NCBI GenBank assembly: GCA_001804805.1
Contig: MHBH01000040.1
Coordinates: forward strand, 1 to 64,000
Length of the DNA: 64,000 nucleotides
Reading direction: 5' to 3'
From: Lentisphaerae bacterium GWF2_49_21
GTDB lineage: Bacteria > Verrucomicrobiota > Lentisphaeria > Victivallales > GWF2-50-93
Part shown: positions 21,383-56,712 of the stretch, one piece after another
How positions within the stretch are numbered: position 1 is the stretch's first letter
How the letters are laid out: each line of letters opens with the position of its first letter
Position numbers and translations under genes: made by a program
Notes under the pieces: model-generated
The model's input: the letters and a program-made list of their open reading frames with translations, nothing else
Database searches by the model: none
Told to the model about the DNA's origin: nothing

Positions 21383-21420
21383 ATATTTTTAGAAAAGATT
21401 TCTAATCTTTCTAAAAATAT
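21383..21420. repeat. Inverted repeat over the end of the deacetylase gene
   Basis: Arms ATATTTTTAGAAAAGATT and AATCTTTCTAAAAATAT pair over 17 bases with one extra A, with a three-base loop. They encode the last residues of the deacetylase (NIFRKIRNLF) and include its stop codon. The edges are AT-rich (ATATTTTT), as in the other members of this class. Confidence 0.75.
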
Positions 21421-23855: not shown

Positions 23856-23884
23856 TATTTTTTTTGCGGACGCAAAAAAAATAT
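23855..23884. repeat. Perfect AT-edged inverted repeat between purH and dapL
   Basis: Arms ATATTTTTTTTGCG and CGCAAAAAAAATAT (14 bases each) are separated by two bases (GA). It begins on the purH stop codon. Neither strand has a clean T run after a GC stem, so a normal intrinsic terminator is doubtful. Confidence 0.75.
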
Positions 23885-31616: not shown

Positions 31617-31757
31617 GAAAACTAAACCCCCGTAGATATTAAATATACCTTCCGTAATTGTAACCTAATCTTTCATCTCCAAGAATACAAGGTGACAGGC
31701 CTGAAACGCTAACGGTGACTCGAGACACAGCGAAGGTATAGAAGTTGTTCTGCAATA

Positions 31758-31785
31758 ATAAAAATCCCGTATCCGGGATTTTTAT
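31758..31785 (-). terminator. Terminator at the ppx end
   Basis: A 12-base stem, ATAAAAATCCCG/CGGGATTTTTAT, with a four-base loop covers the ppx stop codon. Read leftward, the stem ends in a U-rich strand (GGGATTTTTAT), as expected for an intrinsic terminator. Confidence 0.6.
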
Positions 31786-32729
31786 CCGAAGTATTTCTGG
31801 AGGTAATGCCTCATTACGCCGTAGCGCAGGCCATTCGCGGTGATGCGGATATCGTTGAAGTTGAAGAAACGGAGGAATTCCGAGAGGATGAGAAGGCCTG
31901 CAGGAAGGACTTCGGCGCGGTCCTTCTCCATGCCCGGGACCTTTACGCGCTCCTCTATGCTCATTCTTGAAAGCTGGCGCGAATACACGGCGACCATCTT
32001 GCTTTCGACCTTGACCGAATTGATATGCTTCCTGTCATACACGTTCTCCTTGAGCAGAAGTGCGGCGAAAGTAGTGGCCGTACCACCGCTGGCGATGACG
32101 ATCGGGCTGCGGCTCGCAAGCCAGGAATGGACATTGTCGACTATCGAGAACATCTGCCTTTTTATGAATCTTTTCGCAGCTATCCTCTGTGGAATCCATT
32201 CCCCCTTGCCGATGTTGAACATTTCAGAGATGCCTACGCATCCAATCGGCATGCTGTGGGCGCCGACCATGATGTTCTTGGTGCCGAACGCAACTTCAGT
32301 GCTGCCGCCGCCGATGTCGACGGTTAGCAGAGGCGACTCGGTTTCAATTTCAGAAGTGGCGCCGAGATAGGTGAACTTCGCCTCCTCCTTGCCGCTGAGG
32401 GCGAGGGGGAAGATATTAAGCTTCTGGTGGCACTTTACGAGGAATTCGCTCTTGTTCTTGGCTTCGCGCACAGCGCTGGTGGCTGTTATGATTAGGTCTT
32501 CGGCGCCTTCATGAACAGCGATCTCCTGCATCTCCTTCGAAACATCAAGAGTACGGTTGATTGCATCTTCGGTGAGGATTCCTGTCTGCGCTACGCCCTT
32601 ACCGAGTTTTGTTATGGCAAAGACTTCATTTACGGGCTCGATAATTCCACTGGCATGACATTTGGCGACAAGAAGGACCACGGAATTGGAACCTATGTCA
32701 AGCACAGCCAGGATTTTTTCTTTTGCCAT
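31782..32729 (-). CDS. ppx: Exopolyphosphatase / guanosine pentaphosphate phosphatase family
   Basis: A 315-residue Ppx/GppA protein, the short form with only the two actin-like ATPase subdomains. Motifs are VLDIGSNSVVLLVA (P loop 1), ATSAVREAKN with the catalytic Glu region, TVDIGGGSTEVAFG (second phosphate motif), and VIASGGTATTFAAL. It would release phosphate from polyphosphate or convert pppGpp to ppGpp. A two-domain PPK2 enzyme gene lies at 59.3 kb, so polyphosphate is probably used by this organism. Its ribosome binding site is weak. Confidence 0.85.
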   Translation of the reverse strand: MAKEKILAVLDIGSNSVVLLVAKCHASGIIEPVNEVFAITKLGKGVAQTGILTEDAINRTLDVSKEMQEIAVHEGAEDLIITATSAVREAKNKSEFLVKCHQKLNIFPLALSGKEEAKFTYLGATSEIETESPLLTVDIGGGSTEVAFGTKNIMVGAHSMPIGCVGISEMFNIGKGEWIPQRIAAKRFIKRQMFSIVDNVHSWLASRSPIVIASGGTATTFAALLLKENVYDRKHINSVKVESKMVAVYSRQLSRMSIEERVKVPGMEKDRAEVLPAGLLILSEFLRFFNFNDIRITANGLRYGVMRHYLQKYFG

Positions 32730-32852
32730 AATAAGAATTTGCCTGATTCGGGTTGAAACTCAAAAAATTACGGTCATACTATGCCAATGCCTTTGATAAA
32801 AAACAATGCTTTCACCTGTGATTTTGACTAAAATAATTATGGAGCCGCAGAT

Positions 32853-33866
32853 ATGATAATCGTGTTCAAACCGCATACGCCTGATGAGAAGATAAACGAA
32901 GTTTCAAACATGATCGTCCAGCTCGGTTACGAGCCGCGCATCATCCGCGGCGTCGAGCATACCGTGATTGGCGCCGTCGGTGACGAGAAGATCCATCGGT
33001 CGCTGGAAATTTTCAAATCCTTCCCCTGCGTGGAGGATGTCATCCCTATCCAGAAGAGATACAAGCTCGCGAGCCGCGAATACCACGAGGAGGACAGCTT
33101 CGTCATGATCGGGAAGGAGAAGATCGGTGCAGGCAGCTTCCAGGTGATCGCTGGACCGTGCGCGATTGAAAGCAGGGAGCAGCTGAGGCAGGCGACAAAG
33201 GACATCATCGCGGCAGGGGTGAAAATTCTGCGTGGAGGCGCCTACAAGCCGAGGACTTCCCCATATGATTTCCAGGGACTCGGAGAGGAGGGGCTGAAAC
33301 TCCTGAAGGAAATCAAGGATGAATTCAACATACCGGTCGTTACCGAAGTCCTGGGTGTCACCCATGTCAAACAGGTCGCCGAAGTTGCTGACTGCCTCCA
33401 GATTGGCGCGAGGAACTGCCAGAACTACCATCTGCTCGAACATGTGGCGGACGCAGGCCGTCCGGTGCTGCTGAAAAGAGGGATGGCGACGACTGTGGAG
33501 GAATGGCTTTCCGCCGCCGAATATCTTGTCGTCCACGGATGTCCGCATGTAATCCTGTGTGAACGCGGTATCCGCACGTTCGAAACTGCGACGAGGAGCA
33601 CTCTTGATCTCGGCGCGGTTGCAGTTGCAAAGAAGGAGACGCATCTTCCCGTGATTGTCGATCCCAGCCATGCCGCCGGAAAAGTTGATCTTGTGCTCCC
33701 ATTGGCGCGGGCCGCGGTTGCCGTCGGTGCCGACGGGATAATTGTTGAGACCCATCCGGATCCTGTCAATGCCACGAGCGATGCCGCACAGCAGATACCT
33801 TCCGGAAAATTCGGTGAGTTCATGAGGAAGCTCACCCCTGTCATCGATGCGATGAAGAAGAAATGA
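32853..33866 (+). CDS. aroF: 3-deoxy-7-phosphoheptulonate (DAHP) synthase
   Basis: A 337-residue type I-beta DAHP synthase with an N-terminal ferredoxin-like regulatory domain (about 1-70, MIIVFKPHTPDEKINEVSNM...) and a barrel domain. Active-site motifs are VIAGPCAIES, RGGAYKPRTSPYDFQGLG, QIGARNCQNYHLL, LKRGMATTVEEW, and IVDPSHAAGK. It joins phosphoenolpyruvate and erythrose 4-phosphate as the first step of aromatic synthesis. GGAG eight bases before the ATG supports the start. Its stop overlaps the Nudix start (ATGA). Confidence 0.93.
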   Translation: MIIVFKPHTPDEKINEVSNMIVQLGYEPRIIRGVEHTVIGAVGDEKIHRSLEIFKSFPCVEDVIPIQKRYKLASREYHEEDSFVMIGKEKIGAGSFQVIAGPCAIESREQLRQATKDIIAAGVKILRGGAYKPRTSPYDFQGLGEEGLKLLKEIKDEFNIPVVTEVLGVTHVKQVAEVADCLQIGARNCQNYHLLEHVADAGRPVLLKRGMATTVEEWLSAAEYLVVHGCPHVILCERGIRTFETATRSTLDLGAVAVAKKETHLPVIVDPSHAAGKVDLVLPLARAAVAVGADGIIVETHPDPVNATSDAAQQIPSGKFGEFMRKLTPVIDAMKKK

Positions 33867-34414
33867 AAAGAACGCCGTGGAAAATTCATTCCTCAAGGGA
33901 AATACTGGAGACTCCTGTCTTCAAAGTCTGGGTCGACAACTCGGAATGTCCGAGGAATGGGAAGAGAGGCGACTTCTACCGTTTCAAATGCGGTGGCTGG
34001 GTCAATATCATAGCAGTGACTCCTGACGACAAGCTGGTGATGATCCGGCAGTTCAGGCATGGCACAAAGAAATGGGAGCTGGAGATTCCGGGCGGACTCA
34101 TAGACAGGACGGATTCCGATCCGTTGTCGGCCGGACAGCGCGAGCTTCTTGAGGAGACCGGATACAAAGGAAAGAATGCAAGGATGATCGGGAAGGTCTG
34201 TCCGAATCCCGCCCTGCAGGACAATGTCTGTTATACGGTTTTTGTGGACAATGCGAAAAAGACATCGGGGACATCGATGGAGGATGGCGAGGATATTGAG
34301 ACGCTCCTTCTCCCGCATGAAAAGGTCCTAAAGCTTATAAAGGGTGGAAAAATCACTCATGGGCTTGTCTTGAATGCTTTGATGTTTTATTTTCTTGAAA
34401 AAGAAATGTTATAA
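33863..34414 (+). CDS. Nudix hydrolase, ADP-ribose pyrophosphatase type
   Basis: A 183-residue Nudix protein. The Nudix box runs from GGLIDRTDSDPLSAG to QRELLEETGY, with the catalytic REXXEE residues intact, and the context (IRQFRHGTKKWELEIPGG) is that of the ADP-ribose/NDP-sugar group. It likely clears ADP-ribose or a related nucleotide sugar. It is coupled to aroF by a four-base overlap and is followed by an AT-edged hairpin with a ribosome binding site in the loop, so it probably shares a transcript with the next gene. Confidence 0.85.
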   Translation: MKRTPWKIHSSREILETPVFKVWVDNSECPRNGKRGDFYRFKCGGWVNIIAVTPDDKLVMIRQFRHGTKKWELEIPGGLIDRTDSDPLSAGQRELLEETGYKGKNARMIGKVCPNPALQDNVCYTVFVDNAKKTSGTSMEDGEDIETLLLPHEKVLKLIKGGKITHGLVLNALMFYFLEKEML

Positions 34415-34435
34415 ATTTTGCGGAGTAAAATTTAT
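34411..34435 (+). promoter_or_regulatory. Hairpin with the ribosome binding site in its loop
   Basis: The arms ATAAATTTT (34411-34419) and AAAATTTAT (34427-34435) enclose GCGGAGT, which contains the only GGAG before the ATG at 34437. The design is the same as at hypA-hypB (36855-36877). It may tune translation, or simply be a member of the AT-edged inverted repeats. Confidence 0.6.
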
Positions 34436-34436
34436 T

Positions 34437-34691
34437 ATGAAGAGTTCATTTGAACTGGCGATGGAACGGCTTGGCGGACCAATGAAAAAACTTACCGACG
34501 AGCAGAAGAAGGCGATAGCTGGAATTGAATCCAAATACAAGTCCAGGATAGCACAGCTCCAGCTTTCGATAGATGAGGCAATCAGAAAAACTCCAGATGA
34601 CGAGGAGAAGATAAGGAAGCAGATCGCCTCTGAAATCTCATCCTTGCAGGAGAAATGCGAGGCGGAGAAGGGGAAGGTAAGAGGGGAGTAA
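34437..34691 (+). CDS. Small charged coiled-coil protein
   Basis: An 84-residue, highly charged helical protein (MKSSFELAMERLGGPMKKL...). Residues 17-80 form a likely coiled coil (KKAIAGIESKYKSRIAQLQLSIDEAI; EISSLQEKCEAEKGKVR). I recall similar short proteins with an ELAMERL start in PVC genomes, but cannot name a function. The start at 34437 is preferred over the upstream in-frame ATG at 34395 because it follows GGAG and the upstream frame overlaps the Nudix gene. It may be co-transcribed with aroF and the Nudix gene. Confidence 0.6.
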   Translation: MKSSFELAMERLGGPMKKLTDEQKKAIAGIESKYKSRIAQLQLSIDEAIRKTPDDEEKIRKQIASEISSLQEKCEAEKGKVRGE

Positions 34692-34712
34692 CTGGTAACT
34701 TGATACTTGAAA

Positions 34713-34795
34713 CCCGCCTTCGCTGAGATGCTACGGCGTGGCAAGCTGGAAATCTGAAATTCGTTGGAGTTCACAGCTTCAGCGTGTCTTGGGAG
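34713..34795. repeat. Two hairpin repeats before the DtxR-type gene
   Basis: CGCC-TTCGCTGAGATGCTAC-GGCG (34715-34738) is followed by CGTTGGAGT + TCACAGCTTCAGCGTG + TCTTGGG (34761-34793). The second runs into the GGGAG ribosome binding site of the regulator gene. Both families are also at 22.4 kb in a nested form. Confidence 0.75.
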
Positions 34796-34803
34796 TTTAT
34801 AAA

Positions 34804-35271
34804 ATGGCTGAAAAAAACATAGAACTTACACTGAACCAGCAGAACTATATTGAGACGATATATTCCCTTTGTCTCGCGCATGAGCACGCCCACGTGAAGG
34901 CGATCGCCGAGAAGTTGAATATCAAGATGGCGTCGGTCACAGAGGCAATGCAGGGACTCACGTCGCTGGGGCTTGTAAACTACACTGTCCGTCAGACCAT
35001 CACCCTGACTCCGGAAGGAGAAGTGATTGCCCTTGAACTCCACAGGAGGCATGCCGTACTTGCCGAATTCTACCGTGAAATCCTAGGTTGCAATCCTGAC
35101 AAGGCCGATGAAATAGCATGCCGTGTTGAACATGACATAGATCCCGAACTCCGTGAGAGGCTCTCCGAGTTCATGCGCTTCCTCAAGGAGGAAATCAAAT
35201 TGCCGGACGGCAGCAATCCCGTCATGGAATTCAGCAAAAGATACTCTGCCAAGACAAACGGTGGTGTTTGA
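34804..35271 (+). CDS. DtxR/MntR-family metal-dependent regulator
   Basis: A 155-residue repressor-type protein. The N-terminal winged helix (NYIETIYSLCLAHEHAHVKAIAEKLNIKMASVTEAMQGL) is followed by the metal-binding and dimer domain (HRRHAVLAEFYREILGCNPDKADEIACRVEHDIDPE), which keeps Cys, Glu and His metal ligands of the family. The SH3-like third domain of DtxR is missing, as in MntR. Metal could be Fe, Mn, or, given the adjacent hypE-hypA-hypB, a metal linked to hydrogenase maturation. The next gene, hypE, starts directly after its stop. GGGAG eight bases upstream supports the ATG. Confidence 0.82.
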   Translation: MAEKNIELTLNQQNYIETIYSLCLAHEHAHVKAIAEKLNIKMASVTEAMQGLTSLGLVNYTVRQTITLTPEGEVIALELHRRHAVLAEFYREILGCNPDKADEIACRVEHDIDPELRERLSEFMRFLKEEIKLPDGSNPVMEFSKRYSAKTNGGV

Positions 35272-36279
35272 ATGGGAGACAGGATCCAAATAGCACATGG
35301 AGGCGGGGGAAGACTTTCCGCTGAGCTTGTAAGGGATGAAATACTTTCACGTTTCGGAAAAGGCCCGTTGAGTGATCTGCCTGACGCCGCAACCCTCGAT
35401 TTCAAAAAAACTACCGGACTCGTAATGTCCACCGACAGTTTTGTCATCCAGCCTGTTGAATTTCCTGGCGGTAACATAGGGAACCTCTGTGTTTATGGAA
35501 CTGTGAATGACATATCAGTTGCAGGCGGAAAACCCCTCTGGCTGTCGCTTGGAATGATCCTCGAGGAGGGGCTCGAAATATCCTTGCTCCGGAAAATCCT
35601 GGATTCCGTGAGGAAATCTGCTGATGAGTGCGGTATAGGGATTGTCACCGGCGACACCAAGGTCGTCCCCAGGGGACAATGCGACAAGATTTATATTAAC
35701 ACGACCGGCATCGGCGAGCGCTGCAAGGACTTCTCCCTTGGCAGAAGCAGGATTAAGAAAGGCGACAAGGTAATTGTAAGCGGAAATATTGGAGATCACG
35801 GCATGGCTGTCCTGTGCGTCCGTGAATCAATCGGCATAAAAAAAGGTCCCAGGAGCGACCTGGGGACCGTTCAAAGGCTTGCAGTTTCTGCCCAGAGGTT
35901 TGGTGCCGATGTCAAGTTCATGCGCGATCCCACAAGAGGAGGGCTGGCTGCTGTTCTCAATGAGATATTCTCAGTAATGCGGTATGGAGTTATCCTTGAA
36001 GAGAAGTCAATACCGTTTTCAAGGGAATCAAAGGCCGTTTCGGAAATGCTCGGACTGGATCTTTTAAATTCCCCATGCGAGGGCAGGGTGGTAATGATAT
36101 GCTCTGAATCCGCTGCCGATAAAATAGTCCGGTCATGGAAGAAACTTCCAGAAGGGCGCAATGCTTCAGTAATAGGAACGGTCACGGGAAACTCAGGGAA
36201 AGTAATCCTGAGCACTTTGGGCGGAGGTGCGAGGATTGTCGATCTTCCGCGAGGAGAAATGCTCCCGAGGATATGTTGA
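35272..36279 (+). CDS. hypE: Hydrogenase maturation protein HypE
   Basis: A 335-residue protein with the AIR-synthase-like (PurM) fold. It dehydrates the thiocarbamate on its C-terminal Cys to thiocyanate, which becomes a CN ligand of the [NiFe] site. The protein begins IAHGGGGRLSAELVRD, has TDSFVIQPVEFPGGNIG and MRDPTRGGLAAVLNEI, and ends in the essential PRIC tail. The C-terminal Cys is therefore intact. It needs HypF to load the Cys; the only HypF-like gene in the window is short. It follows the DtxR-type gene without a gap. Confidence 0.95.
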   Translation: MGDRIQIAHGGGGRLSAELVRDEILSRFGKGPLSDLPDAATLDFKKTTGLVMSTDSFVIQPVEFPGGNIGNLCVYGTVNDISVAGGKPLWLSLGMILEEGLEISLLRKILDSVRKSADECGIGIVTGDTKVVPRGQCDKIYINTTGIGERCKDFSLGRSRIKKGDKVIVSGNIGDHGMAVLCVRESIGIKKGPRSDLGTVQRLAVSAQRFGADVKFMRDPTRGGLAAVLNEIFSVMRYGVILEEKSIPFSRESKAVSEMLGLDLLNSPCEGRVVMICSESAADKIVRSWKKLPEGRNASVIGTVTGNSGKVILSTLGGGARIVDLPRGEMLPRIC

Positions 36280-36287
36280 GGTTTGAA

Positions 36288-36453
36288 TTCGTCGGCAGTC
36301 AAGCCCGCAAGGGCTGTTCTTGAGAGTAGGTACGTGCTTTCCTGTCCTGAGCTTGTCGAAGGGAGCATGTACCAAGTCTTAAAAATCAAGAATGGGACAG
36401 GCTAAAGCCCGTCCCTACTTTAAGAACATGTCTTGCGACATTGACTACGAACG
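36288..36453. repeat. Mosaic of hairpin repeats between hypE and hypA
   Basis: Contains GTCAAGCCC-GCAA-GGGCTGTTCTT (36288-36323), the GGTACGTGCT/AGCATGTACC hairpin (36329-36373) with a foreign 23-base word inserted in its loop (CCTGTCCTGAGCTTGTCGAA and GGG), the GGGACAGGC...GTCCC hairpin (36394-36419), and a reversed GCAA-loop element (36421-36453). At 6304-6413 the same modules occur with an uninterrupted loop. Confidence 0.8.
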
Positions 36454-36513
36454 AATTCCTGTAAAATCCAGGAGATGAAAATATGTTGATCTGTAGAGCT
36501 AGGGGAGTTCAAT

Positions 36514-36855
36514 ATGCATGAATTGGCATTGGCGACATCGCTCGTTGAGCAGATAACTGCGGTCATGAAATATGAACGTGCCTCAAAGCTTCATTCCGTC
36601 AGGATTTCCATCGGGAGATTTTCAGGTGTAGAGAAGGTTGCCCTTAAATTCGCTTTCCCGATGGCGGCCGAACGCACTCCTGCGGCAGGAGCCAAGCTCA
36701 TTGTCGAAATCACCGATATGAAGTTGAAATGCAGAGCCTGCGGCAAGGAGACCATAGCGGAGATCCCCCTTGCCAAATGCGGGAAATGTGATTCATTAGA
36801 TGTCGAAGTCGTGTGCGGAAGGGAATTGATAATCAAATCGATGGAGATTGAGTAA
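36514..36855 (+). CDS. hypA: Hydrogenase nickel-insertion protein HypA
   Basis: A 113-residue HypA of normal length. MHELALATSL gives the nickel-binding Met1-His2-Glu3, and the zinc site is CRACGKETIAEIPLAKCGKC (two CxxC pairs), although a third nearby Cys (near residue 100) also occurs. It delivers nickel with HypB to the large subunit. GGGGAG seven bases before the ATG supports the start. The gene is separated from hypE by a repeat mosaic of 234 bases, so it may have its own promoter. Confidence 0.93.
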   Translation: MHELALATSLVEQITAVMKYERASKLHSVRISIGRFSGVEKVALKFAFPMAAERTPAAGAKLIVEITDMKLKCRACGKETIAEIPLAKCGKCDSLDVEVVCGRELIIKSMEIE

Positions 36856-36877
36856 TAAAATTTCGGAGAAATTTTAT
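36855..36877 (+). promoter_or_regulatory. Hairpin joining the hypA stop and hypB start
   Basis: The arms ATAAAATTTC (36855-36864) and GAAATTTTAT (36868-36877) are perfect; the loop is GGA. The left arm begins on the last base of the hypA stop codon, the ribosome binding site GGAG lies in the loop, and the right arm runs into the hypB ATG. Folded, it would hide the start codon, so it could couple hypB translation to hypA. Confidence 0.65.
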
Positions 36878-37739
36878 GTGTGAAAGCTGCGGATGTTCTA
36901 ACATCAAGATAGATATCAAGGGCAAAAAGAAGGTAAAGTTGCCTAATGGCTACCATGTCCATGAGGACGGCACTATGCACAGCCACCATGATGGCGACAA
37001 GCATAGCCACCATCATCACAATGACGGCCATCACCATTCGCATGATCACGGCGACGATCACGATCACCATCATCACGAAGAAAAAAGCCACAGAAGGGTT
37101 ATCGAGCTTGAGAGAAAGGTTCTTGAGAAAAACGACATTGCCGCTGAGGAGAACCGCATGTATTTTGAAAAGCACGGCATCGTAACCGTAAATATCATCT
37201 CTTCACCAGGTTCGGGCAAGACAATGCTTCTCGAAAAGACTCTCGACAGGCTGAAAGGAAAGATTCAGTGCGCAGTCATAACAGGAGACATCCAGACCGA
37301 CAATGATGCGAGACGGCTGAAGGGCAGGGGGGCGAAGGTCCACCAGATCGAGACTGGAAGCTCTTGCCATCTGAACGCCGAACAGGTCGGCAGGGTTCTT
37401 CATGATGTCATAGACAAAAAGACCAAAATTCTATTCATTGAGAATGTCGGGAACCTTGTCTGCCCCGCCGCGTTCGATCTCGGTGAGACTTTCAAGATTG
37501 CCCTTCTTTCAGTTCCTGAAGGCGAGGACAAACCTGTCAAATATCCTGTCATCTTCTCAACCGCTAAACTCGTAATAATCACCAAGACGGATCTGATGAA
37601 GCATCTTGACTGTGACATCAAGAAGATGCGGAAGTATATCCGCGAGATAAATCCGGGAGTATTCATCTTCGAGCTCAGCGCCAAGACCGGCGAAGGAATG
37701 GATGCATGGATCGATTATCTGACGAAATTGACCGAATAA
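36876..37739 (+). CDS. hypB: Hydrogenase nickel-insertion GTPase HypB with His-rich segment
   Basis: A 287-residue GTPase. MCESCGC is the N-terminal high-affinity nickel motif. A His-rich stretch (about residues 24-70, several HHHH runs) can store nickel, as in HypB of rhizobia. The GTPase domain has SSPGSGKTMLLEKTL (Walker A), GDIQTDNDARRL, SSCHLNAEQV (metal site Cys and His), IENVGNLVCPA, and ITKTDLM (NKxD-like). It works with HypA in nickel delivery. Its start codon is inside a hairpin. It converges with the hypF-like gene over a bidirectional palindrome. Confidence 0.95.
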   Translation: MCESCGCSNIKIDIKGKKKVKLPNGYHVHEDGTMHSHHDGDKHSHHHHNDGHHHSHDHGDDHDHHHHEEKSHRRVIELERKVLEKNDIAAEENRMYFEKHGIVTVNIISSPGSGKTMLLEKTLDRLKGKIQCAVITGDIQTDNDARRLKGRGAKVHQIETGSSCHLNAEQVGRVLHDVIDKKTKILFIENVGNLVCPAAFDLGETFKIALLSVPEGEDKPVKYPVIFSTAKLVIITKTDLMKHLDCDIKKMRKYIREINPGVFIFELSAKTGEGMDAWIDYLTKLTE

Positions 37740-37775
37740 TTTCCTTTCAAGACAAACGTCTTGAAAGGAAATTAT
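37736..37775. terminator. Symmetric palindrome spanning both stop codons of convergent genes
   Basis: Perfect 18-base arms (ATAATTTCCTTTCAAGAC and its complement) around the loop AAAC. The left arm contains the hypB TAA and the right arm the complementary TAA of the hypF-like gene. It probably ends transcription from both sides, although no long U tract follows. Confidence 0.65.
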
Positions 37776-38998
37776 ATATTGTTCAAATCTGATGTCGCTG
37801 CGATTACGGCCTGGCCCAGAGAGATGCCGCAGTCGTTCGTCGGAACTCTTACATGGGGAAACGCCTTGAGCTTTGATTTAATAATATTTCCTTGAAGGAT
37901 TTCAAGGAAATATCTGTTCATGAAGACTCCGCCGCTCAGGACTATGTTTCTCGTTGCGAACTTCGCAGTTCCGAAATCAATCATCCTCATTGCGGAATTC
38001 GCAAGGGAGTGATGGAAGGACAACGCTAATAAATTTTTCCGGGCTGGGGACATCCCTGAAAAATTTATAACATTATTGCTGAAGAGAGGGGACCAATCAA
38101 TTAAGAAAAGACCATCCTTTTCAAAGGATTTGAAAGGCATTAGCAAAGCATCAGGCTTATCCTTGCAGGCTTCGGCGGCTTTCTGGAGATTGATCGCGGC
38201 CTCGGCCTCCCGGGCGATTTTCGGAGCGAGTCCGAGAAGGCATGAGACCGAGTCGAAGAGCCTGCCTGCAGAATGGGATTTTGGGCAATTTATATTTTTT
38301 TCAAGCTGCTTGAGCCATACCTTTGCGATATCGGGTTTTAGACCGTGGACACGACAGAAGCTATCGAGATTTGGTTTGCCATGGCAGCTTGAAAAAAATA
38401 TTCTACCAAAGAGCTGGCGGAGAGGCTCGCGTACAGATGCGTCGCCGCCGGGCAGGGGGGCGGCTGCGAAAGTCGCAAAACGCGTGAAGCCTTTAGGATT
38501 CACATGTAGAAGTTCAGCTCCCCAGAGGTTTCCATCAGTCCCGTAGCCAGTACCGTCAAATACCAGGGCAAGCGATTCCTCAAGTCCATGTTCAGCCATG
38601 CACGAGGCGGCGTGTGCGTGATGGTGCTGGATTCTCAGCAGAGGAATTCCTTTTTCACCTGCAATCTTTTCACCGTAGACAGTCGAATAATAATCCGGAT
38701 GCAGGTCGACTGCGGCAATATCAGGTTTTGTGGATTTTAAGAGCTTGGAAATGGAGCTTTCAAATCTCATCGTTGACTCAGGATCGGAAAGAGGTCCGTG
38801 ATTGTCAGAAATGAGACAGAGTGATTTATCTTTCATTATGCAGGCAACAGTATTCTTTGAATCTGCACCAAAGGCAATTGCGTTCCGCCTGAAGCGGTCT
38901 TTTGAAAGATTGACTTCTGAAAATTTTGCGAGCATCTTTAACACGGGAACATGCACAGTCCTTACGGTTATTGCGGAAATGTATTCGTTGGAGTACAA
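37772..38998 (-). CDS. hypF: Short HypF-like carbamoyltransferase (Kae1-type domain only)
   Basis: A 408-residue protein matching only the C-terminal half of HypF. Present: FGADSKNTVACIMKDKSLCLISDNHGPL, VDLHPDYYST, IQHHHAHAASCMAEHG (metal-binding His), VFDGTGYGTDGNLWGAELL, and SGGVFMNRYFLEIL. Absent: the acylphosphatase domain, zinc fingers and YrdC domain (about 350 residues), which make carbamoyl-AMP. The frame begins at a TTG inside a dispersed repeat; the first in-frame ATG is at 38935. Three inverted repeats lie in the coding sequence (37884, 38029, 38292). Either a split HypF whose YrdC half is elsewhere, a repeat-trimmed gene, or a carbamoyltransferase with another role. Confidence 0.75.
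   Translation of the reverse strand: MYSNEYISAITVRTVHVPVLKMLAKFSEVNLSKDRFRRNAIAFGADSKNTVACIMKDKSLCLISDNHGPLSDPESTMRFESSISKLLKSTKPDIAAVDLHPDYYSTVYGEKIAGEKGIPLLRIQHHHAHAASCMAEHGLEESLALVFDGTGYGTDGNLWGAELLHVNPKGFTRFATFAAAPLPGGDASVREPLRQLFGRIFFSSCHGKPNLDSFCRVHGLKPDIAKVWLKQLEKNINCPKSHSAGRLFDSVSCLLGLAPKIAREAEAAINLQKAAEACKDKPDALLMPFKSFEKDGLFLIDWSPLFSNNVINFSGMSPARKNLLALSFHHSLANSAMRMIDFGTAKFATRNIVLSGGVFMNRYFLEILQGNIIKSKLKAFPHVRVPTNDCGISLGQAVIAATSDLNNI
37884..37913. repeat. Perfect 13-bp inverted repeat inside the hypF-like gene
   Basis: Arms ATATTTCCTTGAA and TTCAAGGAAATAT enclose GGAT. It encodes RYFLEILQGNII after the SGGVFMN motif. By eye this part of the protein has the usual HypF length, so the palindrome seems to replace sequence rather than insert it. 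Confidence 0.8.
38029..38068. repeat. Inverted repeat inside the hypF-like gene, ATAAATTTTTC arms
   Basis: Eleven-base perfect arms (ATAAATTTTTC / GAAAAATTTAT) continue after one mismatch into GGG/CCC. It is translated on the minus strand as NVINFSGMSPARKNLL. The arm edge ATAAATTT is the one also seen at 10171, 34411 and 56688. Confidence 0.75.
38292..38401. repeat. 18-bp inverted repeat with 74-base spacer inside the hypF-like gene
   Basis: Arms 38292-38309 (ATATTTTTTTCAAGCTGC) and 38384-38401 are perfectly complementary. They encode IFFSSCH and EKNIN at two separate places. The long spacer sets it apart from the other compact palindromes. Confidence 0.75.
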
Positions 38999-39120
38999 AC
39001 TTTAGTTTGTCTTTGTATTCAAGAAGTTACGCAAGCTTCCGACTTCGCTAAGGAGCTTCCCACTTCGCCTAGGAGGCTACGAGGGACAGGACGACGGACG
39101 CAGAAAGCTTGTACTCCAAC
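38986..39120. repeat. Repeat block at the start of the hypF-like gene
   Basis: CGTTGGAGTA + CAAACTTTAGTTTG + TCTT (about 38986-39011), two TTCGCT/TTCGCC-type words (39039-39085), and a reversed GTTGGAGTACAAGCTTTCTG element (39095-39121). The first copy overlaps the presumed start codon of the hypF-like gene. Confidence 0.7.
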
Positions 39121-39194
39121 ATAATTCAATTACTAAACAATGTTTTTTATATTTTTGCAATTATAGAAGAAGGAATCCCAGGAATGCTCTGGGG

Positions 39195-39710
39195 TTATTT
39201 AGCGGATCTGGCAGTCAATATTTCCGCGATGTCTTCAGCGAGTTGCAGGGAGGCGGATTGAACTTCCTTTGATGATTTCTTGCCGAACTCGAGGACTTTG
39301 GGCTGGATGCCGATCATTATAATTTCGCATTTTACCGACTGCAGGACATAATTAATCATTACTTCGAGCGGCATCATATGTGTTGAAAAAGATGCTCCGG
39401 AGAGTTCTTCGGGCTTGATCAAGGATATTGTCCCGGGTTTCGCTTCAAGGTCTGCGGCATCAATCATTATAAGATGGGTCGGATTGTATTTCCTGATTTC
39501 GCCGGTGATGTTCTCCGGGGCAGTGCATCCTTGGAGAAGACGGAATCCGCAATAGGTTTTCTTTTTCCTGAGGAGCTTGCCGAGGTGATCGACTGCAAGA
39601 GTTCCGGCTATGTCATCAGCCCTGAGCTCAGAGCCTACACCGACTATTGCAACACGTTCCGCCTGCTCAAGCCTGGCCTTCAGTAGTTTTTTTAACTTCG
39701 ATATTGGCAT
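39195..39710 (-). CDS. hycI: [NiFe]-hydrogenase maturation protease (HycI type)
   Basis: A 171-residue member of the HyaD/HycI endopeptidase family. IVGVGSELRADDIAG is the N-terminal nickel-sensing motif (Glu and Asp ligands) and IMIDAADLEAKPGTISL the second; HMMPLEVMINY supplies the late His, and IMIGIQPKVLEFG the end motif. It would cut the C-terminal tail from the large subunit after nickel insertion. The gene overlaps the ferredoxin-like subunit gene by 44 bases as the last gene of the leftward hydrogenase operon. Confidence 0.9.
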   Translation of the reverse strand: MPISKLKKLLKARLEQAERVAIVGVGSELRADDIAGTLAVDHLGKLLRKKKTYCGFRLLQGCTAPENITGEIRKYNPTHLIMIDAADLEAKPGTISLIKPEELSGASFSTHMMPLEVMINYVLQSVKCEIIMIGIQPKVLEFGKKSSKEVQSASLQLAEDIAEILTARSAK

Positions 39711-40056
39711 TGAGCGTCACTCTGAGTTTGGAATGGACGAGTTGAGCGAGTTCGAATTCCTTTGTTGCAGCAAGGGCCTTCTTCGGGCAGGTGTCGACGC
39801 ACTGTGCGCAATATACGCATTTGTCGAGGTCGATAATGGCTTCAAACTTCTTTTCGCCGATCTTGTTGATTGTGATGGCGTTTGAAGGGCAGTCCTTCAT
39901 GCAGAGCTTGCATCCGATGCATTTCTCGGAATAGAATTCGAGCTTTCCGCGGAACTTGTCAGGCTTTTCGGTCTTGACGAATGGGTATAGCTCCGTGGCA
40001 GGTTTCCTGAACACGTTGTTCATGACCTCGGCGAACATTTTTCCAGGTTTTATCAT
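39667..40056 (-). CDS. Two-[4Fe-4S] ferredoxin-like hydrogenase subunit (NuoI type)
   Basis: A 129-residue iron-sulfur protein with motifs CIGCKLCMKDCP (near residue 47) and CVYCAQCVDTCP (near residue 80). In energy-converting hydrogenases this subunit takes electrons from ferredoxin to the small subunit. It starts within the stop codon of the NuoH-like gene (ATGA) and overlaps the protease gene. Length is close to EchF/MbhN proteins. Confidence 0.88.
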   Translation of the reverse strand: MIKPGKMFAEVMNNVFRKPATELYPFVKTEKPDKFRGKLEFYSEKCIGCKLCMKDCPSNAITINKIGEKKFEAIIDLDKCVYCAQCVDTCPKKALAATKEFELAQLVHSKLRVTLNANIEVKKTTEGQA

Positions 40057-40994
40057 CGGACGAGTATTCCTTTCAGGATGAAGCTGATCAATATCTGGAG
40101 CAGGGCGGCCGGCGCGAGATATTTCCAGCAGAAGTTCACCATCTGGTCGATCCTAAGGCGTGCGAAAATCGAACGCATAAGGGACATTATAAAGATGATC
40201 ACGAGCAATTTGACTATGAAAATCACAAAGCTTATCACTGGGTGGAGCTCGAGTCCGAACGGCAGGAACACGGCTGCCAGCAGTGCGGCACAGACTACCA
40301 TCTCGATATCTATGGCCATTCTGAACAGAGCAAGGAATTTTCCGCTGTATTCGGTGAACGCACCGCCGACGACTTCAGTTTCCGCCTCAGGTATGTCAAA
40401 GGGGATTCTTTCGAGCTTGCCCTGGATCGCGATGACCGAAACGGCAAAACCGAGTATGTTGAAGAGGGCGTACCAGGGATGTTCGCCGTAGAAACGGGTT
40501 ATCGCCTCAAGGGACCAGCTGTCTGCGAGAATCGCAGGGGAAAGTATTCCCATGAAGAGCGGAACTTCATAGGCAAAGAGCTGTGTGAGCGTACGGACCG
40601 CTCCTATCATTGCATAAAGCGATGTCGAATACCAGCCGGCGAGGAAGAATGTCAGGGTCGGCAGGGTCAGCAGATAGAGTACGACGATGATGTCGCCTTC
40701 GAATGAGAACAATGATGCCGTATTCCATAAAGGAATATAAAGGAACGCGGTTACAGCTGCGGCAACAGCGAATACTGGAAGGATCTTGAACATCCTGGCG
40801 TCCGCCTCCTCGGGAATGAGTTCCTCCTTGGCGAGCAGCTTGATGAAATCTGCTACTGGCTGGAACCATGGCGGGCCCATTCTGTTCTGGAACCTGGCAT
40901 ATAGCCTCCTGTCAATGAATTCAGCAATTACGCCGAATATACTCAGGAAGAGAAGTCCTGGGAAAACTAATATGCTGAACAAAGTATATATCAT
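40053..40994 (-). CDS. Membrane subunit linking hydrogenase and ion-pumping modules (NuoH type)
   Basis: A 313-residue, eight-helix protein of the NuoH/EchB/MbhM group. Signature stretches are RFQNRMGPPWFQPVADFIKLLAKE, IGAVRTLTQLFAYEVPLFMGI, and ERIPFDIPEAETEVVGGAFTEYSGKFLALFRMA. The charged loop residues that couple electron transfer to pumping are present. It belongs to the eleven-gene hydrogenase operon 49229 to 39667 (hycI follows) and overlaps the next gene by four bases. Confidence 0.92.
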   Translation of the reverse strand: MIYTLFSILVFPGLLFLSIFGVIAEFIDRRLYARFQNRMGPPWFQPVADFIKLLAKEELIPEEADARMFKILPVFAVAAAVTAFLYIPLWNTASLFSFEGDIIVVLYLLTLPTLTFFLAGWYSTSLYAMIGAVRTLTQLFAYEVPLFMGILSPAILADSWSLEAITRFYGEHPWYALFNILGFAVSVIAIQGKLERIPFDIPEAETEVVGGAFTEYSGKFLALFRMAIDIEMVVCAALLAAVFLPFGLELHPVISFVIFIVKLLVIIFIMSLMRSIFARLRIDQMVNFCWKYLAPAALLQILISFILKGILVR

Positions 40995-40998
40995 TGTC

Positions 40999-42219
40999 CT
41001 ACCACCGCTTTGAAATTTTGATTTTTGACATATCCACGCCTCTGTTCTGCTTGTACCAGTCTATGCTGTACTGGCGGAGAGTCTTCCAGTCGATGAAATT
41101 CTCCTTGCGGCTGTTCGCGTCCTTCATGGACACCATCATCCTGTCAGTGCATGAGAAGCATGGGTCTATGGCCGCGACAACTATCGGGATGTCTGCGAGA
41201 TATCCGTTCTTAAGCATGGCTGCTACAGCCTGCACATTTGCGAGGGTGGGGGCCCTGACCTTCACCCGTTCGGGCCTGTCAGTTCCGTTTGCCTTCACAT
41301 AATGCACATCTTCACCTCTTGGCGCCTCATATCTGCTGAGAGCTTCGCCTGCCTGGATTTTCCTAGGAGCCTTGACAGCTATCGGACCTTCCGGGATATT
41401 TTTCAGCAGCTGGCGGATCATCTTATAGGATTCCATGAGTTCTCCGACTCTGACAAGTGTACGGCCAAGGACATCGTTATGGTTGTCTGTGATGACCTTG
41501 AATGAAAGGTCTGCATATGCTGCATAGGGATCATCACGTCTAACGTCGATATCACGTCCGGAAGCACGTGCCGTAGGGCCTGCTGCTCCGAGCTTCAGTG
41601 CATCATCGTGGGAGAGTGTGCCAACTTTAGAGAGTCTCTCAATAAGTGTGACCTCCTCTGAGGCGACCTGAATATAATACTTGGTCCTTTCTTCAAGAAT
41701 ATCAACTAGCGGAAGAATGGTCTTGATCTGATCAGGCGATATATCCCTTCTGACACCACCGACAGTGTTCATTGCATAATTGACGCGGTTGCCAGTGAGC
41801 ATGGAAAGTATGTCCATTACTATTTCCCTGTCGCGCCAAGAATACATCAGAAGTGTATCGAAACCGACCTCGTGTCCGGCGACTCCGAGCCAGAGGAGAT
41901 GGCTGTGGACGCGTTCAAGTTCAGCAACTATGGTTCTAAGATAATGGGCCCGTTTTGGCAGTTCAAGCGCCGCTATCTCCTCAACTGCCTGGAGAAAGCA
42001 TGTGGAGTGAGTATGAGAACAGATACCGCATACTCTTTCAAGCAGGTAAATATCCTGGATGTAGGTCCTCTGCTCGCATGCTTTTTCAATACCCCTGTGG
42101 TTGTAACCGACCTTGACGATCATGTCGAGTATCTTTTCACCGTCGAGAGTGATATTGAAGCTTGCCGGCTCCTTGAGCGCCGGATGCTGAGGGCCGATTG
42201 GTATCATTACTTTGCCCAT
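40999..42219 (-). CDS. [NiFe]-hydrogenase large subunit, group 4 (energy converting)
   Basis: A 406-residue catalytic subunit related to NuoD but with all four nickel cysteines: RVCGICSHTHS (Cys64 and Cys67) and DPCFSCTDR (Cys354 and Cys357). This separates it from Complex I NuoD, which lacks them. About 46 residues follow DPCFSCTDR and should be cut off by the HycI-type protease encoded at the operon end. The N-terminus (MIPIGPQHPALKEPASF) and GYNHRGIEK are typical of the group. It makes or uses H2 at the membrane on the cytoplasmic side. Confidence 0.94.
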   Translation of the reverse strand: MGKVMIPIGPQHPALKEPASFNITLDGEKILDMIVKVGYNHRGIEKACEQRTYIQDIYLLERVCGICSHTHSTCFLQAVEEIAALELPKRAHYLRTIVAELERVHSHLLWLGVAGHEVGFDTLLMYSWRDREIVMDILSMLTGNRVNYAMNTVGGVRRDISPDQIKTILPLVDILEERTKYYIQVASEEVTLIERLSKVGTLSHDDALKLGAAGPTARASGRDIDVRRDDPYAAYADLSFKVITDNHNDVLGRTLVRVGELMESYKMIRQLLKNIPEGPIAVKAPRKIQAGEALSRYEAPRGEDVHYVKANGTDRPERVKVRAPTLANVQAVAAMLKNGYLADIPIVVAAIDPCFSCTDRMMVSMKDANSRKENFIDWKTLRQYSIDWYKQNRGVDMSKIKISKRW

Positions 42220-42231
42220 GGTATTCCACCT

Positions 42232-42711
42232 TTAATTTGATTTTTCCTGTTTGACTTCCGGTTCATCCTGGGGTTTCCAGTCCTTGCGCAAAGGATACTG
42301 TCCAATCGGCCAGTCATCCGGAAGCGGATATCTCCTGCCCTTGGCAAGACCTTCGACCTTTGCGCCAAGGAGGTCTTCGAGCTCCCTTTCATACAGATCT
42401 GCAGATGGGAAATATCCTGTTATAGTCTTGATTGAGGGATTGGACTTAGGGACTGAAATCTTAATATTGAGGATAATGCTGTAATTGAGTGCAAGGTGAT
42501 AGATGAACGAAAGGTTTTCGCCTTCGTCCAGCCCGCTTATGATGCAGAGATAGTTGAAATTCATCTTCTTCACAGTGTAATCAAATACATCCATGAACCT
42601 GTCCGCTGGCACATCGAGAAAAATGCGTCTTTCGCGCGGGATCCTGAACTTGCCTTCAAGGAAACCGAAGTTTTTTATCAATTCCTGCTGTATTGTTTCT
42701 TCTTTTGACAT
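42232..42711 (-). CDS. NuoC-like 30-kDa hydrogenase subunit
   Basis: A 159-residue protein of the NuoC family. Characteristic C-terminal part: ITGYFPSADLYERELEDLLGAKVEGL, then a proline-rich end (RRYPLPDDWPIGQYPLRKDW). It carries no cofactor and holds the peripheral arm together. AAGGAG upstream supports the ATG. Gene order (B, C, D) is that of Complex I. Confidence 0.88.
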   Translation of the reverse strand: MSKEETIQQELIKNFGFLEGKFRIPRERRIFLDVPADRFMDVFDYTVKKMNFNYLCIISGLDEGENLSFIYHLALNYSIILNIKISVPKSNPSIKTITGYFPSADLYERELEDLLGAKVEGLAKGRRYPLPDDWPIGQYPLRKDWKPQDEPEVKQEKSN

Positions 42712-42726
42712 GATATCGCTCCTTGA

Positions 42727-43176
42727 TTAGGCGGATTTTTCCTCGGCTTTTTCCAGGCTCGTTATGAGTTTTACGACGCCGTCCATGATGGCTTCAGGGC
42801 ATGCCGGACAGCCGGGTATGAATGCCGAGACGGGAATGACTGAATCTACGCCACCCATGACATTGTAGCAACCTTTGAATACGCCGCCCGAGCATGCGCA
42901 TGTTCCAACTGCCACGACGAATTTAGGTTCAGCCATCTGCTCGTAGATCCTAATGAGCCTGCTTCTTATCTGTCTGGTTACAGGACCGGAACATACGAGA
43001 ACATCGGCATGCCTCGGTGTCGCTTTCAAGAGGATACCGAAGCGTTCAATGTCATAGCGCGGTGTAAGCGCTGCGATAATTTCGATGTCGCATGCATTGC
43101 ACGCACCGGAATTGAAATGGATTATCCATGGTGATTTGACTCTCGCCCAAGTAACCATTTTATTTAGAAAAGCCAT
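42727..43176 (-). CDS. [NiFe]-hydrogenase small subunit (NuoB type)
   Basis: A 149-residue protein with the proximal [4Fe-4S] cysteines in NSGACNACDIE (Cys26 and Cys29), GTCACSGG (near residue 94) and PGCPACPEAI (near residue 130). It is the short group 4 form, without the extra clusters of uptake hydrogenases. It passes electrons between the ferredoxin-like subunit and the nickel site. Located between the NuoA-like and NuoC-like genes. Confidence 0.92.
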   Translation of the reverse strand: MAFLNKMVTWARVKSPWIIHFNSGACNACDIEIIAALTPRYDIERFGILLKATPRHADVLVCSGPVTRQIRSRLIRIYEQMAEPKFVVAVGTCACSGGVFKGCYNVMGGVDSVIPVSAFIPGCPACPEAIMDGVVKLITSLEKAEEKSA

Positions 43177-43182
43177 ATGAAT

Positions 43183-43515
43183 TTACCTCCTGAACAATAT
43201 GAATAAGCCGCTTACCGCGATTATCAGATAAAGGAAAGCCATGCCGCCAAGCCTGATTGTGTCGGCAGGGGCGGTCGCTATCATCAGTACAACAACATGC
43301 ATGATCGTGAAGAAGAACGCGAATGAGAAGAACTGGCTGTAATCCGGCTGGAGCCTCGGGTTCTCTATGTCTTCGCCGCATCCATAGGATTTCAGTTTCC
43401 CCGGAGAGCTCTTGGCGCCCTTGAAGGCAATTTTCGAGGAAAGAGCGGACATGATTAAACCTGCAAGAAGCAGTATCAGGAACGCTACAGGAGGATAAAT
43501 CAGTAAAGTTTCCAA
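43183..43515 (-). CDS. NuoA-like membrane subunit
   Basis: A 110-residue protein with three hydrophobic helices. The loop KSYGCGEDIENPRLQ resembles the NuoA loop (PYECGxxP...), which in Complex I lies near the quinone site and is not part of most Ech or Mbh hydrogenases. FFSFAFFFTIMHVVVLMI is the second helix. Its presence makes this hydrogenase unusually close to Complex I in composition. Confidence 0.72.
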   Translation of the reverse strand: METLLIYPPVAFLILLLAGLIMSALSSKIAFKGAKSSPGKLKSYGCGEDIENPRLQPDYSQFFSFAFFFTIMHVVVLMIATAPADTIRLGGMAFLYLIIAVSGLFILFRR

Positions 43516-43525
43516 GGTTTGTCTC

Positions 43526-43846
43526 CTATCCTTTTAGTTTCTCAAGCTTCCTCACGTCGAGGGAGCTGTTATGACGCGACACATTGATTATGATGCCTGC
43601 GGCGACGACCATGACAACTACTTCTATTATGATGAGTGTTATCACAAGCGTCTGGGCAAGCGCCAATTCGCCGGTCGCATAGCCGGCGACAATAATCAGC
43701 AGGGTCACGGCCTTCGTCAGGATTTCAAGGCCGATTATGATCCTTATTAAATTGCGTGTCACGAGGATGCAGTAGATTCCCGTTATGAGGAGCAACGGTA
43801 TGAATATCATGGACAAATTAAGTATCTGTGCGGTATTGTCAGCCAT
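43526..43846 (-). CDS. NuoK/MrpC-like membrane subunit
   Basis: A 106-residue, three-helix protein. The second helix has a buried acidic residue in IIIGLEILTKAVTLLI, and the third the patterned TLVITLIIIEVVVMVVAAGIII with a second Glu, as expected for proton-channel subunits of the NuoK/MrpC group. GGAG precedes the ATG. It overlaps the upstream NuoJ-like gene by eight bases. Confidence 0.82.
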   Translation of the reverse strand: MADNTAQILNLSMIFIPLLLITGIYCILVTRNLIRIIIGLEILTKAVTLLIIVAGYATGELALAQTLVITLIIIEVVVMVVAAGIIINVSRHNSSLDVRKLEKLKG

Positions 43847-44453
43847 TTTTCTCCTCTCCTTCCCCTTCTGGATTGGACAGCCTGTCCGGTTTGTACTTGA
43901 AGAGGACCACGACAGCGAAAACTCCTGCGAGAAGTATGAGCACCTGGCCGAGAATGTCGAGGCGTCTTGTGTTCCACATCACGTGCTTGACATCCTTTGC
44001 GTCGCGCTGTCTGTCTTCAATCAGCATGACCTGTTCCTCGTCAAGAGGAGCGTTCTGGATTGCCTGGGCGCTGGAAATCCTGCTGGCCGACGGTGCTTTC
44101 CTGATCATCTTGTCCCAGGACACGTCGAGTTTTACCAGGATGATCGCGGCAACGATGAGAATCACCGGCAGAAGCCAGAAGCGTCTGATACGGCTGGAAT
44201 GCATGACGTTCTCTTCGAAGTGAGTCATAGGCTTGGTAAGGCTGATGACACTCATGAAAATAACAGTTATCAGGCCGGCGCAGACTGAAAGTTCAAATAC
44301 TGCGGCAAGGGGCGATGCAAGCCTGAACATGAGTATTGAAAGGATGACGCTTGCGGCCGCGAGAGCGATTGCGCTCTTCACAAGGCTCCCCTTGACGACC
44401 GCCCACAGCGAGGCGACTGTCAGAAGTATCAGAAGTATGATATTTATAGTCAA
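43839..44453 (-). CDS. NuoJ-like membrane subunit
   Basis: A 204-residue protein with about five helices. The conserved block SPLAAVFELSVCAGLITVIFMSVISLTKP matches the NuoJ pi-bulge helix region, and ILGQVLILLAGVFAVVVLFKY forms the last helix. Between them lies an unusual hydrophilic stretch of about 60 residues (KMIRKAPSASRISSAQAIQNAPLDEEQ...). This could also be read as a NuoJ with an MrpB-like tail. It precedes the NuoK-like gene. Confidence 0.78.
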   Translation of the reverse strand: MTINIILLILLTVASLWAVVKGSLVKSAIALAAASVILSILMFRLASPLAAVFELSVCAGLITVIFMSVISLTKPMTHFEENVMHSSRIRRFWLLPVILIVAAIILVKLDVSWDKMIRKAPSASRISSAQAIQNAPLDEEQVMLIEDRQRDAKDVKHVMWNTRRLDILGQVLILLAGVFAVVVLFKYKPDRLSNPEGEGEEKNG

Positions 44454-44462
44454 GTCTTTCTC

Positions 44463-45914
44463 CTAGTTTTTAATCACTAACGGTATAATATCCTTTATCG
44501 GCAGTATGAACTTTTCAAGTATGTAGGGGAAACACACTCCGACGGCTATCGTTATCAGGGCCAGTATGATCGCTGGCACGAGATTTCCCAGCTTCGCCTC
44601 AGTAATGTTTTCCAATCCCGCCCTGAGCTTTCCAAAGAAGACCCTGCGCTGCATGGAGAGGAAATACGCGAGTGTTATGACGCTGGCAACGACCGCAACC
44701 AGGGCGGAAAAATAATTCGCGGACTGCCAGAGCGCAATGATTATTATGAGCTTGCTCCAGAAACCTGAGAACGGCGGTATGCCGACGGTTGAAAGGAGTG
44801 CTATCAGGGATGTGGTGCTGGTGACAGGCATCTTTGAACCGAGTCCACCGAGCTTGTCCATGTCCCGTGTTCCGGTCTGTTCTTCGACTGCGGCGGAATT
44901 TATGAAGAGCTGGGATTTGAAGATGGAATGGTTGAAGAGATGGAAGACTGCGCCCATTACGCCATAGGCATTTCCGGCTCCAAGGCCCAGTATTATATAT
45001 CCGACCTGGCTTATGCTTGAATAGGCGAGCATCCTCTTGAAATCCTTCTGGCCGAGTGCGGCGAGGGCGCCGACGACAATTGAGATCAGTCCGACCGCCA
45101 GCAGTATGCTCATGACTGATTCAGTGAATCCGAAGACCGACGTCACAAGCCTGATCAATGTGTAGACACCGGTCGTCTTTGTAACTATTCCTGCGAGAAG
45201 CACTGAAACTCCGCTGGGCGCAGTTGAATATGCGTCAGGCAGCCATCCATGGAACGGGACAAGTCCGCCCTTTATGAAAAGCCCCACGGTAAAGAGTCCG
45301 ACTGCAAGAACCATTAGGAAGTTCCTGTCACTGGACTTGAGAGCGGCTGCGACTGTCGCAAAGGAAGTGTCGCCGGCAAGCATCAGAAGCAGGCCGATCG
45401 AAGCGAGCATCATTATTGTTGCGACTGCCGACATGATTATGTATTTGAAGGCGCCTTCAAGCGCCCATATGTCCCTGTGGAAAGAAATAAGCACGAAGGA
45501 TGCGACTGCTACGATTTCAAGGAAGACATAGAGTGAGAACAGGTCGTTGACCATGACTATCCCGTTCATGCCTGCGATGCAGAGCAGGAGGATGCTTGCA
45601 AAGTCGGCCTTCTGTGTCTGGTCTGTCCCACCGATGGTGCGCCATCCGGAAATAATTGCCGCGAACGAGACGAGTCCTATCGAGATGAGCATTACGACGC
45701 CCAGTGCGTCGACTGTAAAGTTCAAACTGAAATTCGAACCGATTCCGGATGGAGGCGCCATGTTCCAGAAGGAAGGGGGCATCATGAATGCCAGACCTGT
45801 CTGGGCAATGATTAAAAGCAGGGCGGCAGGGAAGGACAGCTCCCTCATCCCCTTGAGCGGGAGATTCATGACTATTACCGCAAAGAGCGGAATTAAAACC
45901 AATAAACTTGCCAC
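44463..45914 (-). CDS. Antiporter-like proton/sodium-pumping subunit 3 (NuoN/MrpD type)
   Basis: A 483-residue protein with about 14 membrane helices. Family features: VVMVNDLFSLYVFLEIVAVASFVLI (channel Glu), FIKGGLVPFHGWLPDAYSTAPSGVS, LAALGQKDFKRMLAYSSISQVGYI, and GIPPFSGFWSKLIII. It starts with GTG. It is one of three antiporter-like subunits in this operon and would move H+ or Na+ as H2 is made from ferredoxin. Confidence 0.87.
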   Translation of the reverse strand: MASLLVLIPLFAVIVMNLPLKGMRELSFPAALLLIIAQTGLAFMMPPSFWNMAPPSGIGSNFSLNFTVDALGVVMLISIGLVSFAAIISGWRTIGGTDQTQKADFASILLLCIAGMNGIVMVNDLFSLYVFLEIVAVASFVLISFHRDIWALEGAFKYIIMSAVATIMMLASIGLLLMLAGDTSFATVAAALKSSDRNFLMVLAVGLFTVGLFIKGGLVPFHGWLPDAYSTAPSGVSVLLAGIVTKTTGVYTLIRLVTSVFGFTESVMSILLAVGLISIVVGALAALGQKDFKRMLAYSSISQVGYIILGLGAGNAYGVMGAVFHLFNHSIFKSQLFINSAAVEEQTGTRDMDKLGGLGSKMPVTSTTSLIALLSTVGIPPFSGFWSKLIIIIALWQSANYFSALVAVVASVITLAYFLSMQRRVFFGKLRAGLENITEAKLGNLVPAIILALITIAVGVCFPYILEKFILPIKDIIPLVIKN

Positions 45915-56687: not shown

Positions 56688-56712
56688 TATAAATTTTCGA
56701 TGAAAATTTATA
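56688..56712. repeat. Palindrome between the two tRNAs
   Basis: Perfect 11-base arms TATAAATTTTC and GAAAATTTATA around GAT fill nearly the whole 28-base spacer between tRNA-Gly and tRNA-Tyr. It may be an RNase processing site in the joint transcript, or one more AT-edged inverted repeat. Confidence 0.75.

Follow-up and report, generated by a model that had tools for sequence, protein, structure and literature searches.

The three inverted repeats that lie within a hypF-like gene of Lentisphaerae bacterium GWF2_49_21, together with a fourth at its end, are not peculiar to hypF: they are members of a genome-wide class of short hairpin elements, a recurrence missed by the preliminary description of this stretch of DNA (64,000 nucleotides, hereafter the window). 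The class is far more abundant than chance would allow, is restricted to a single genus with a few members in a sister genus, and replaces sequence inside genes instead of being inserted into it. The ATA-footed hairpins, as we call the set from its constant ends, are previously unrecognised. We consider the chances about even that the hypF palindromes represent a genus-specific class of short hairpin elements with copied arms that has been retained by selection for structure.

The host gene and its repeats are as follows, the repeats being listed without strand.

37772 to 38998, minus strand: open reading frame for the C-terminal, Kae1-like part of HypF, 408 amino acids from a TTG
37736 to 37775: ATA-footed palindrome forming the entire hypB-hypF spacer, 18-bp perfect arms, 4-nt loop
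37884 to 37913: intragenic ATA-footed palindrome, 13-bp perfect arms, 4-nt loop, found in this genome only
38029 to 38068: intragenic ATA-footed palindrome ATAAATTTTTC...GAAAAATTTAT, 11-bp perfect arms
38292 to 38309: 18-bp arm of a repeat with a 74-nt spacer, 3' arm in the sense direction, QLEKNI codons, the apparent template side
38384 to 38401: partner 18-bp arm of the same repeat, 5' arm in the sense direction, encoding IFFSSC, the overwritten side

All four repeats are present as first described. The arms separated by the 74-nt spacer match perfectly over their 18 bp, and the repeat at 38029-38068, when its interrupted inner part is included, is 89% paired over 18 positions. If transcribed, each of the hypF repeats is predicted to fold into a stable hairpin (-13 to -36 kcal/mol); a search for known RNA families across positions 30000-45000 of the window gave no matches up to an E value of 0.5. 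The fourth repeat had been described as the end of hypF, but it is in fact the spacer between the convergent genes hypB and hypF, with each foot being the TAA stop codon of one of the two genes, and its outer arms are retained in the relative G003.

The preliminary description judged chance to be improbable, and the judgement holds. One thousand synonymous-codon shuffles of the reading frame, preserving both protein and codon usage, gave a mean of 0.084 repeats (arms of at least 11, loop of at most 120) and a maximum of 1, against the 3 observed. The orthologs in G002 and G003 likewise lie above all 1000 shuffles, while that in G001 has no repeats. Two objections had been anticipated for this reading, a similar density in shuffled genes and strong conservation of the affected residues, but the shuffles lack the observed density and the residues encoded by the palindromes are unconserved in distant HypF proteins.

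The host gene is itself reduced, and sits in a hyp/hydrogenase cluster of an uncultured genus of Lentisphaerae. A profile search identifies PF17788 and PF22521; the match to TIGR00143 covers profile positions 383-740 only and, at 224 bits, falls below the 466-bit cut-off. The zf-HYPF domain is absent from all genomes of the genus and family that were searched, although HypE, HypA, HypB and HypD occur, and HypF in the genus (37772-38998; L002, L003, L004) comprises the Kae1-like half only, in a search directed at the zinc-finger and Kae1-like domains. The host gene thus shows the Kae1-like domain without the N-terminal zinc-finger region that HypF combines with it. Since similarity to relatives begins only around residue 22-36, the real start codon may be further in. 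A separate repeat with 17-bp ends (GTTGGAGTACAA...TTGTACTCCAAC) lies across the annotated TTG, at 38987-39120; it is probably a REP-type element, because at other loci (L256, contig C20 near 82000) members of its family are found on the flanks of Y1 (RAYT-type) transposase genes. Some 20 Y1 transposase genes are present in this genome (L241-L256, contigs C2, C20 and C32), flanked by several distinct repeat families, among them CTTTGGACTGCG, CGTCACTCTGCTGACG and AAGTAGGTACGG.

Our survey beyond the window covered 1.44 Mb, about a quarter of a 5.9-Mb genome available as a draft in 91 contigs. It contains 130 perfect hairpins (arms of at least 11, loops of 3-20), compared with 9 in a second-order Markov simulation. 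Exact ATA...TAT ends are carried by 51 of the 130, but by none of 48 hairpins in 1.0 Mb from other phyla and none of 6 at other Lentisphaerae loci. Similarly, 40 of 116 ATAAATTT words (34%) have an inverted copy facing them no more than 24 nt away, compared with 0.5% of control words; the half-site alone, as would be seen for an uptake sequence, shows no over-representation. Matches to the strict ATAAATTTT hairpin pattern number 45 in this genome, whereas 144 others from the phylum, sampled outside the genus, contain 4 in all. A looser pattern, applied to whole genomes, gives 133, 141, 59 and 80 matches across the four genus members, where the control gives 2-6; the signal is weak in the sister genus (21 versus 0 in the control), and mostly at or near control level in the rest of the order.

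The feet follow the consensus 5'-ATA[A/T][A/T]TTT ... AAA[A/T][A/T]TAT-3' and are common to the copies, whereas the inner arms and loops differ in nearly every copy; arms measure 9-20 bp and loops 3-24 nt, with the 74-nt case in addition. For placement, we used 79 elements defined as ATA-footed, with 9 or more paired bases and no more than one mismatch. The foot thus entered the definition, but the same excess is seen in the 130 hairpins taken without that selection. Perfect stems form the commonest class (30), and 15 stems have one mismatch. In a small sample of 13 cases, G-U pairs are not enriched in mismatched stems, which argues against simple selection on RNA structure. Elsewhere in the window, the following elements are found.

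1816 to 1851: second, looser ATA-footed inverted repeat in hisC
1988 to 2015: ATA-footed palindrome inside hisC (histidinol-phosphate transaminase)
5883 to 5926: palindrome with 20-bp arms, TATTTTTTCTTGAACTCCTG/CAGGAGTTCAAGAAAAAATA, within a PHP-domain-like open reading frame
21383 to 21420: ATA-footed palindrome across the 3' end of the open reading frame 21389-22402
23855 to 23884: ATA-footed palindrome whose first base is the final base of the TGA stop codon of the open reading frame 22734-23855
31758 to 31785: ATA-footed palindrome with the TAA stop codon of the open reading frame 31782-32729
36855 to 36877, plus strand: 23-bp palindrome ATAAAATTTCGGAGAAATTTTAT between hypA and hypB, whose two feet carry a stop codon and an ATG respectively and whose loop carries GGAG
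56688 to 56712: intergenic member, TATAAATTTTC gat GAAAATTTATA

As this list suggests, the elements are concentrated at gene boundaries, chiefly on stop codons and less strongly on start codons. One foot falls exactly on a stop codon in 41 of the 79 elements, at an offset of -4 or -1 (A+TAA in one position, while in the other the element opens with the final base of the stop); 8 elements finish on the AT of a start codon, and 21 are within coding sequence. A shuffle control yielded none. Outside the window, genes were called with a simple codon-score ORF caller, which can miss some, as at C5 64151, an apparently intergenic element that by its reading sits in a probable dehydrogenase gene. Between convergent genes the palindrome is often the whole spacer, with a stop codon at each foot (as for hypB-hypF), and some co-directional pairs have the stop codon on one foot, GGAG in the loop and the start codon on the other foot (as for hypA-hypB). 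A literature search for palindromes at the stop codons of convergent genes found nothing matching. Orthologs without a palindrome keep the stop codon in place, as at 31758-31785, where the palindrome is degraded in G001 and the stop codon unchanged; the elements therefore appear to have been fitted to existing gene ends and not to have created them. Intragenic copies keep no fixed reading frame, which counts against the explanation that we prefer.

Stop codons are also a frequent site for a further group of palindromes, whose arm is more constant.

C4 24286, C14 11086, C17 154908 and 196824, C40 133019 and 166076: members of the GTAAATATTCACYGR group

How do the elements change across species? 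It had been proposed that the repeat at 37884 arose by templated copying of one arm from the other and not by insertion. Absence of insertion is confirmed: local length does not change in orthologs that lack the palindrome, nor does it at hisC and at C10 18771, and insertion into hypF is accordingly rejected. At the 38029 site, a 25-nt form in G002 and G003 aligns to G001 without gaps, and only the loop in this genome has 15 extra nucleotides (5 codons). Polarity between the arms is visible at 38292/38384. This repeat is identical to the letter in the present genome, G002 and G003, with flanks about 76% identical, and is absent in G001. In a protein alignment with outgroups, the right arm encodes the family-typical KQLEKNI, while the left arm (IFFSSC) is unlike every outgroup, so the left arm is the one that was overwritten, in line with copying from the right. 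No single copying event can be made out at 37884, where both arms differ from every relative.

Compensated changes point in the same direction. Across 17 ortholog comparisons (few, not all independent, and picked because both or nearly both sequences carry the element), 14 compensated pairs are found where 0.73 are expected, along with 10 single broken pairs. The hisC element at 1988-2015 is retained in G001 with two compensated inner pairs, is weaker in G002 and G003, and is absent in the outgroup G004; in the element at 23855-23884, the T-run and the A-run are each one shorter in G001, on both sides; and a 3'-end element on C17 has a stem altered on both sides at three positions. In the alignments, then, the arms remain complementary through changes of sequence, and at one repeat an ancestral arm stands opposite an overwritten one. 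Conservation of the 8-bp outer arms is modestly higher than that of the flanks (82% against 73% on average, species without the element included), but loops are not conserved, a point against our preferred explanation. Several intragenic copies (37884, C10 18771 and C17 48588) each occur in a single species; the class therefore turns over, which weighs against that explanation too. The hairpin at C5 63717-63742 (L214, L215) ends exactly at the ATG of a sugar-isomerase-like gene, and its arms, like those at 38292/38384, are identical in three species between flanks that across the two sites are 65-76% identical; its loop reads GGAC in two species and GTCT in the third, nearly a loop inversion, in this single case.

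Preserved length, the polarity of the arms at 38292/38384 and concerted changes in both arms all fit fold-back templated copying, and to this extent the proposal of templated copying stands. As a whole account it falls short: the fixed ATA...TAT feet, the anchoring on stop codons, the restriction of a whole class to one genus and the identity of arms between species are not explained by copying, and we infer additional selection. New or repaired arms would thus be made by fold-back copying of one arm from the other (template switching), and the resulting hairpin would then be kept by selection for structure. The hairpin would most probably serve a task at gene boundaries, for example ribosome release or pausing at the stop codon, protection of mRNA ends, or translational coupling; intragenic copies may be functional members or tolerated by-products. 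E. coli REPs at most 15 nt from a stop codon have been reported to stall ribosomes (PMC12306157), and by analogy a role in translation termination is plausible for the stop-anchored members. Rather more tentatively, the hairpins may constitute a new structure-defined element in which the ATA...TAT feet and the paired stem, and not the particular letters, are recognised by a putative cellular partner that maintains them, confined to one genus and placed at stop and start codons as well as within genes at a cost in amino acids.

Among the alternatives, the one that survives best is purely mutational: recurrent template switching at A/T-edged quasi-palindromes would give rise to the arms and homogenise them, without any function, and copies would build up where proteins tolerate them. 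Concerted multi-pair changes, the predominance of perfect stems, the overwritten arm, lineage-specific gains and the near inversion of a loop (GGAC/GTCT) are all to be expected on this basis, and precedents are documented from yeast genes (PMC8604942), from rRNA (PMC8794818) and from the mitochondria of nematomorphs (PMC6649704). However, the coding arm could serve as a template for a free non-coding arm, so copying alone predicts palindromes that reach into genes; the stop-anchored ones do not, and it is hard to see why the left foot should halt on the stop codon. Nor does this account provide for fixed feet, or for arms identical between species amid diverged flanks. We therefore regard it as a possible, if rather unlikely, explanation.

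It is improbable that the elements are double-stranded DNA sites bound by a dimeric protein, each A/T foot serving as a half-site. The outer 8 bp are symmetric, A/T-rich and conserved, as such sites would be, but the spacing between the feet varies widely (loops of 3-24 and 74 nt), the inner arms vary and yet remain complementary, which a reader of half-sites would not need, and single half-sites are not over-represented. Little more can be said for the idea that the elements are mobile or REP-like, spread by a transposase of the Y1 (RAYT-type) sort in which the genus is rich. Y1 copy number does follow element number (20, 17, 12 and 14 in the genus; 10, 3, 2 and 2 in sister genera), and GTAG REPs likewise provide stop codons and occur in open reading frames (PMC3733652). 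Mobility of this type is disfavoured because the Y1 genes have other repeats as flanks: at the 23 loci examined these belong to other families and are not ATA-footed palindromes. Moreover, inner arms vary from copy to copy, only the feet being shared, so that there is no family of near-identical repeats, and orthologs show replacement with length unchanged.

We give an equally low probability to ordinary bidirectional intrinsic terminators with stray copies in genes. Many elements do lie at 3' ends and in convergent spacers, and a minority (the ATAAAAATCCCG type) have the usual order of A-run and T-run. In most copies, though, the two runs are the opposite way round from a terminator, with the T-run in the 5' arm and the A-run in the 3' arm, so the expected stem followed by a T-run is missing; the ATA-footed hairpins start on the stop codon, whereas terminators of the classical kind are found 13-25 nt downstream of it in this genome; and 24 of 40 stop-anchored cases are between co-directional genes. 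A CsrA-binding hairpin was also rejected, there being no CsrA in the genus and GGA in only a minority of loops. Chance or an assembly artefact, conceivable for a draft in 91 contigs, can be dismissed given the codon shuffles, the simulation and the presence of the same elements, in frame, in independently assembled relatives.

If hairpins are indeed formed in place within working genes and kept perfect by arm copying, this genus would offer hundreds of natural replicates in which mutational homogenisation can be set against selection for structure, a question still open for coding palindromes elsewhere. Hairpin feet placed exactly on stop codons would in addition suggest that Lentisphaerae mark or handle their gene ends in a way not yet described.

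Rickettsia palindromic elements are inserted, longer and conserved in sequence, unlike the Lentisphaerae elements. The two have in common that they are palindromes within bacterial protein-coding genes, and the Rickettsia elements receive mention in a report on nematomorph mitochondria (PMC6649704). REP elements (GTAG/CGTC, PMC3733652; E. coli, PMC12306157) are comparable as palindromes of 20-40 bp at gene ends, some supplying stop codons and some within open reading frames; they differ in forming repeated sequence families tied to RAYT genes, whereas the Lentisphaerae elements vary, are absent from Y1 flanks and replace existing sequence. In nematomorph mitochondria, functional genes contain perfect inverted repeats in which both arms are coding, gain and loss are dynamic, and the perfect arms are apparently kept by conversion; there the palindromes reach 284 bp and, in the available text of that report, are described without fixed feet or stop anchoring (PMC6649704), as against arms of 9-20 bp with constant ATA feet on a bacterial chromosome. 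Comparable in mode of change are short inverted repeats attributed to template switching in yeast genes (PMC8604942) and rRNA hairpins (PMC8794818), which undergo multi-nucleotide, length-preserving changes that turn one arm into the complement of its partner, as well as loop inversions. Both an overwritten arm (38292/38384) and concerted changes of two arms are found here too, but the repeats in those studies are scattered and without a common edge sequence, whereas here hundreds share their feet and their sites at gene boundaries.
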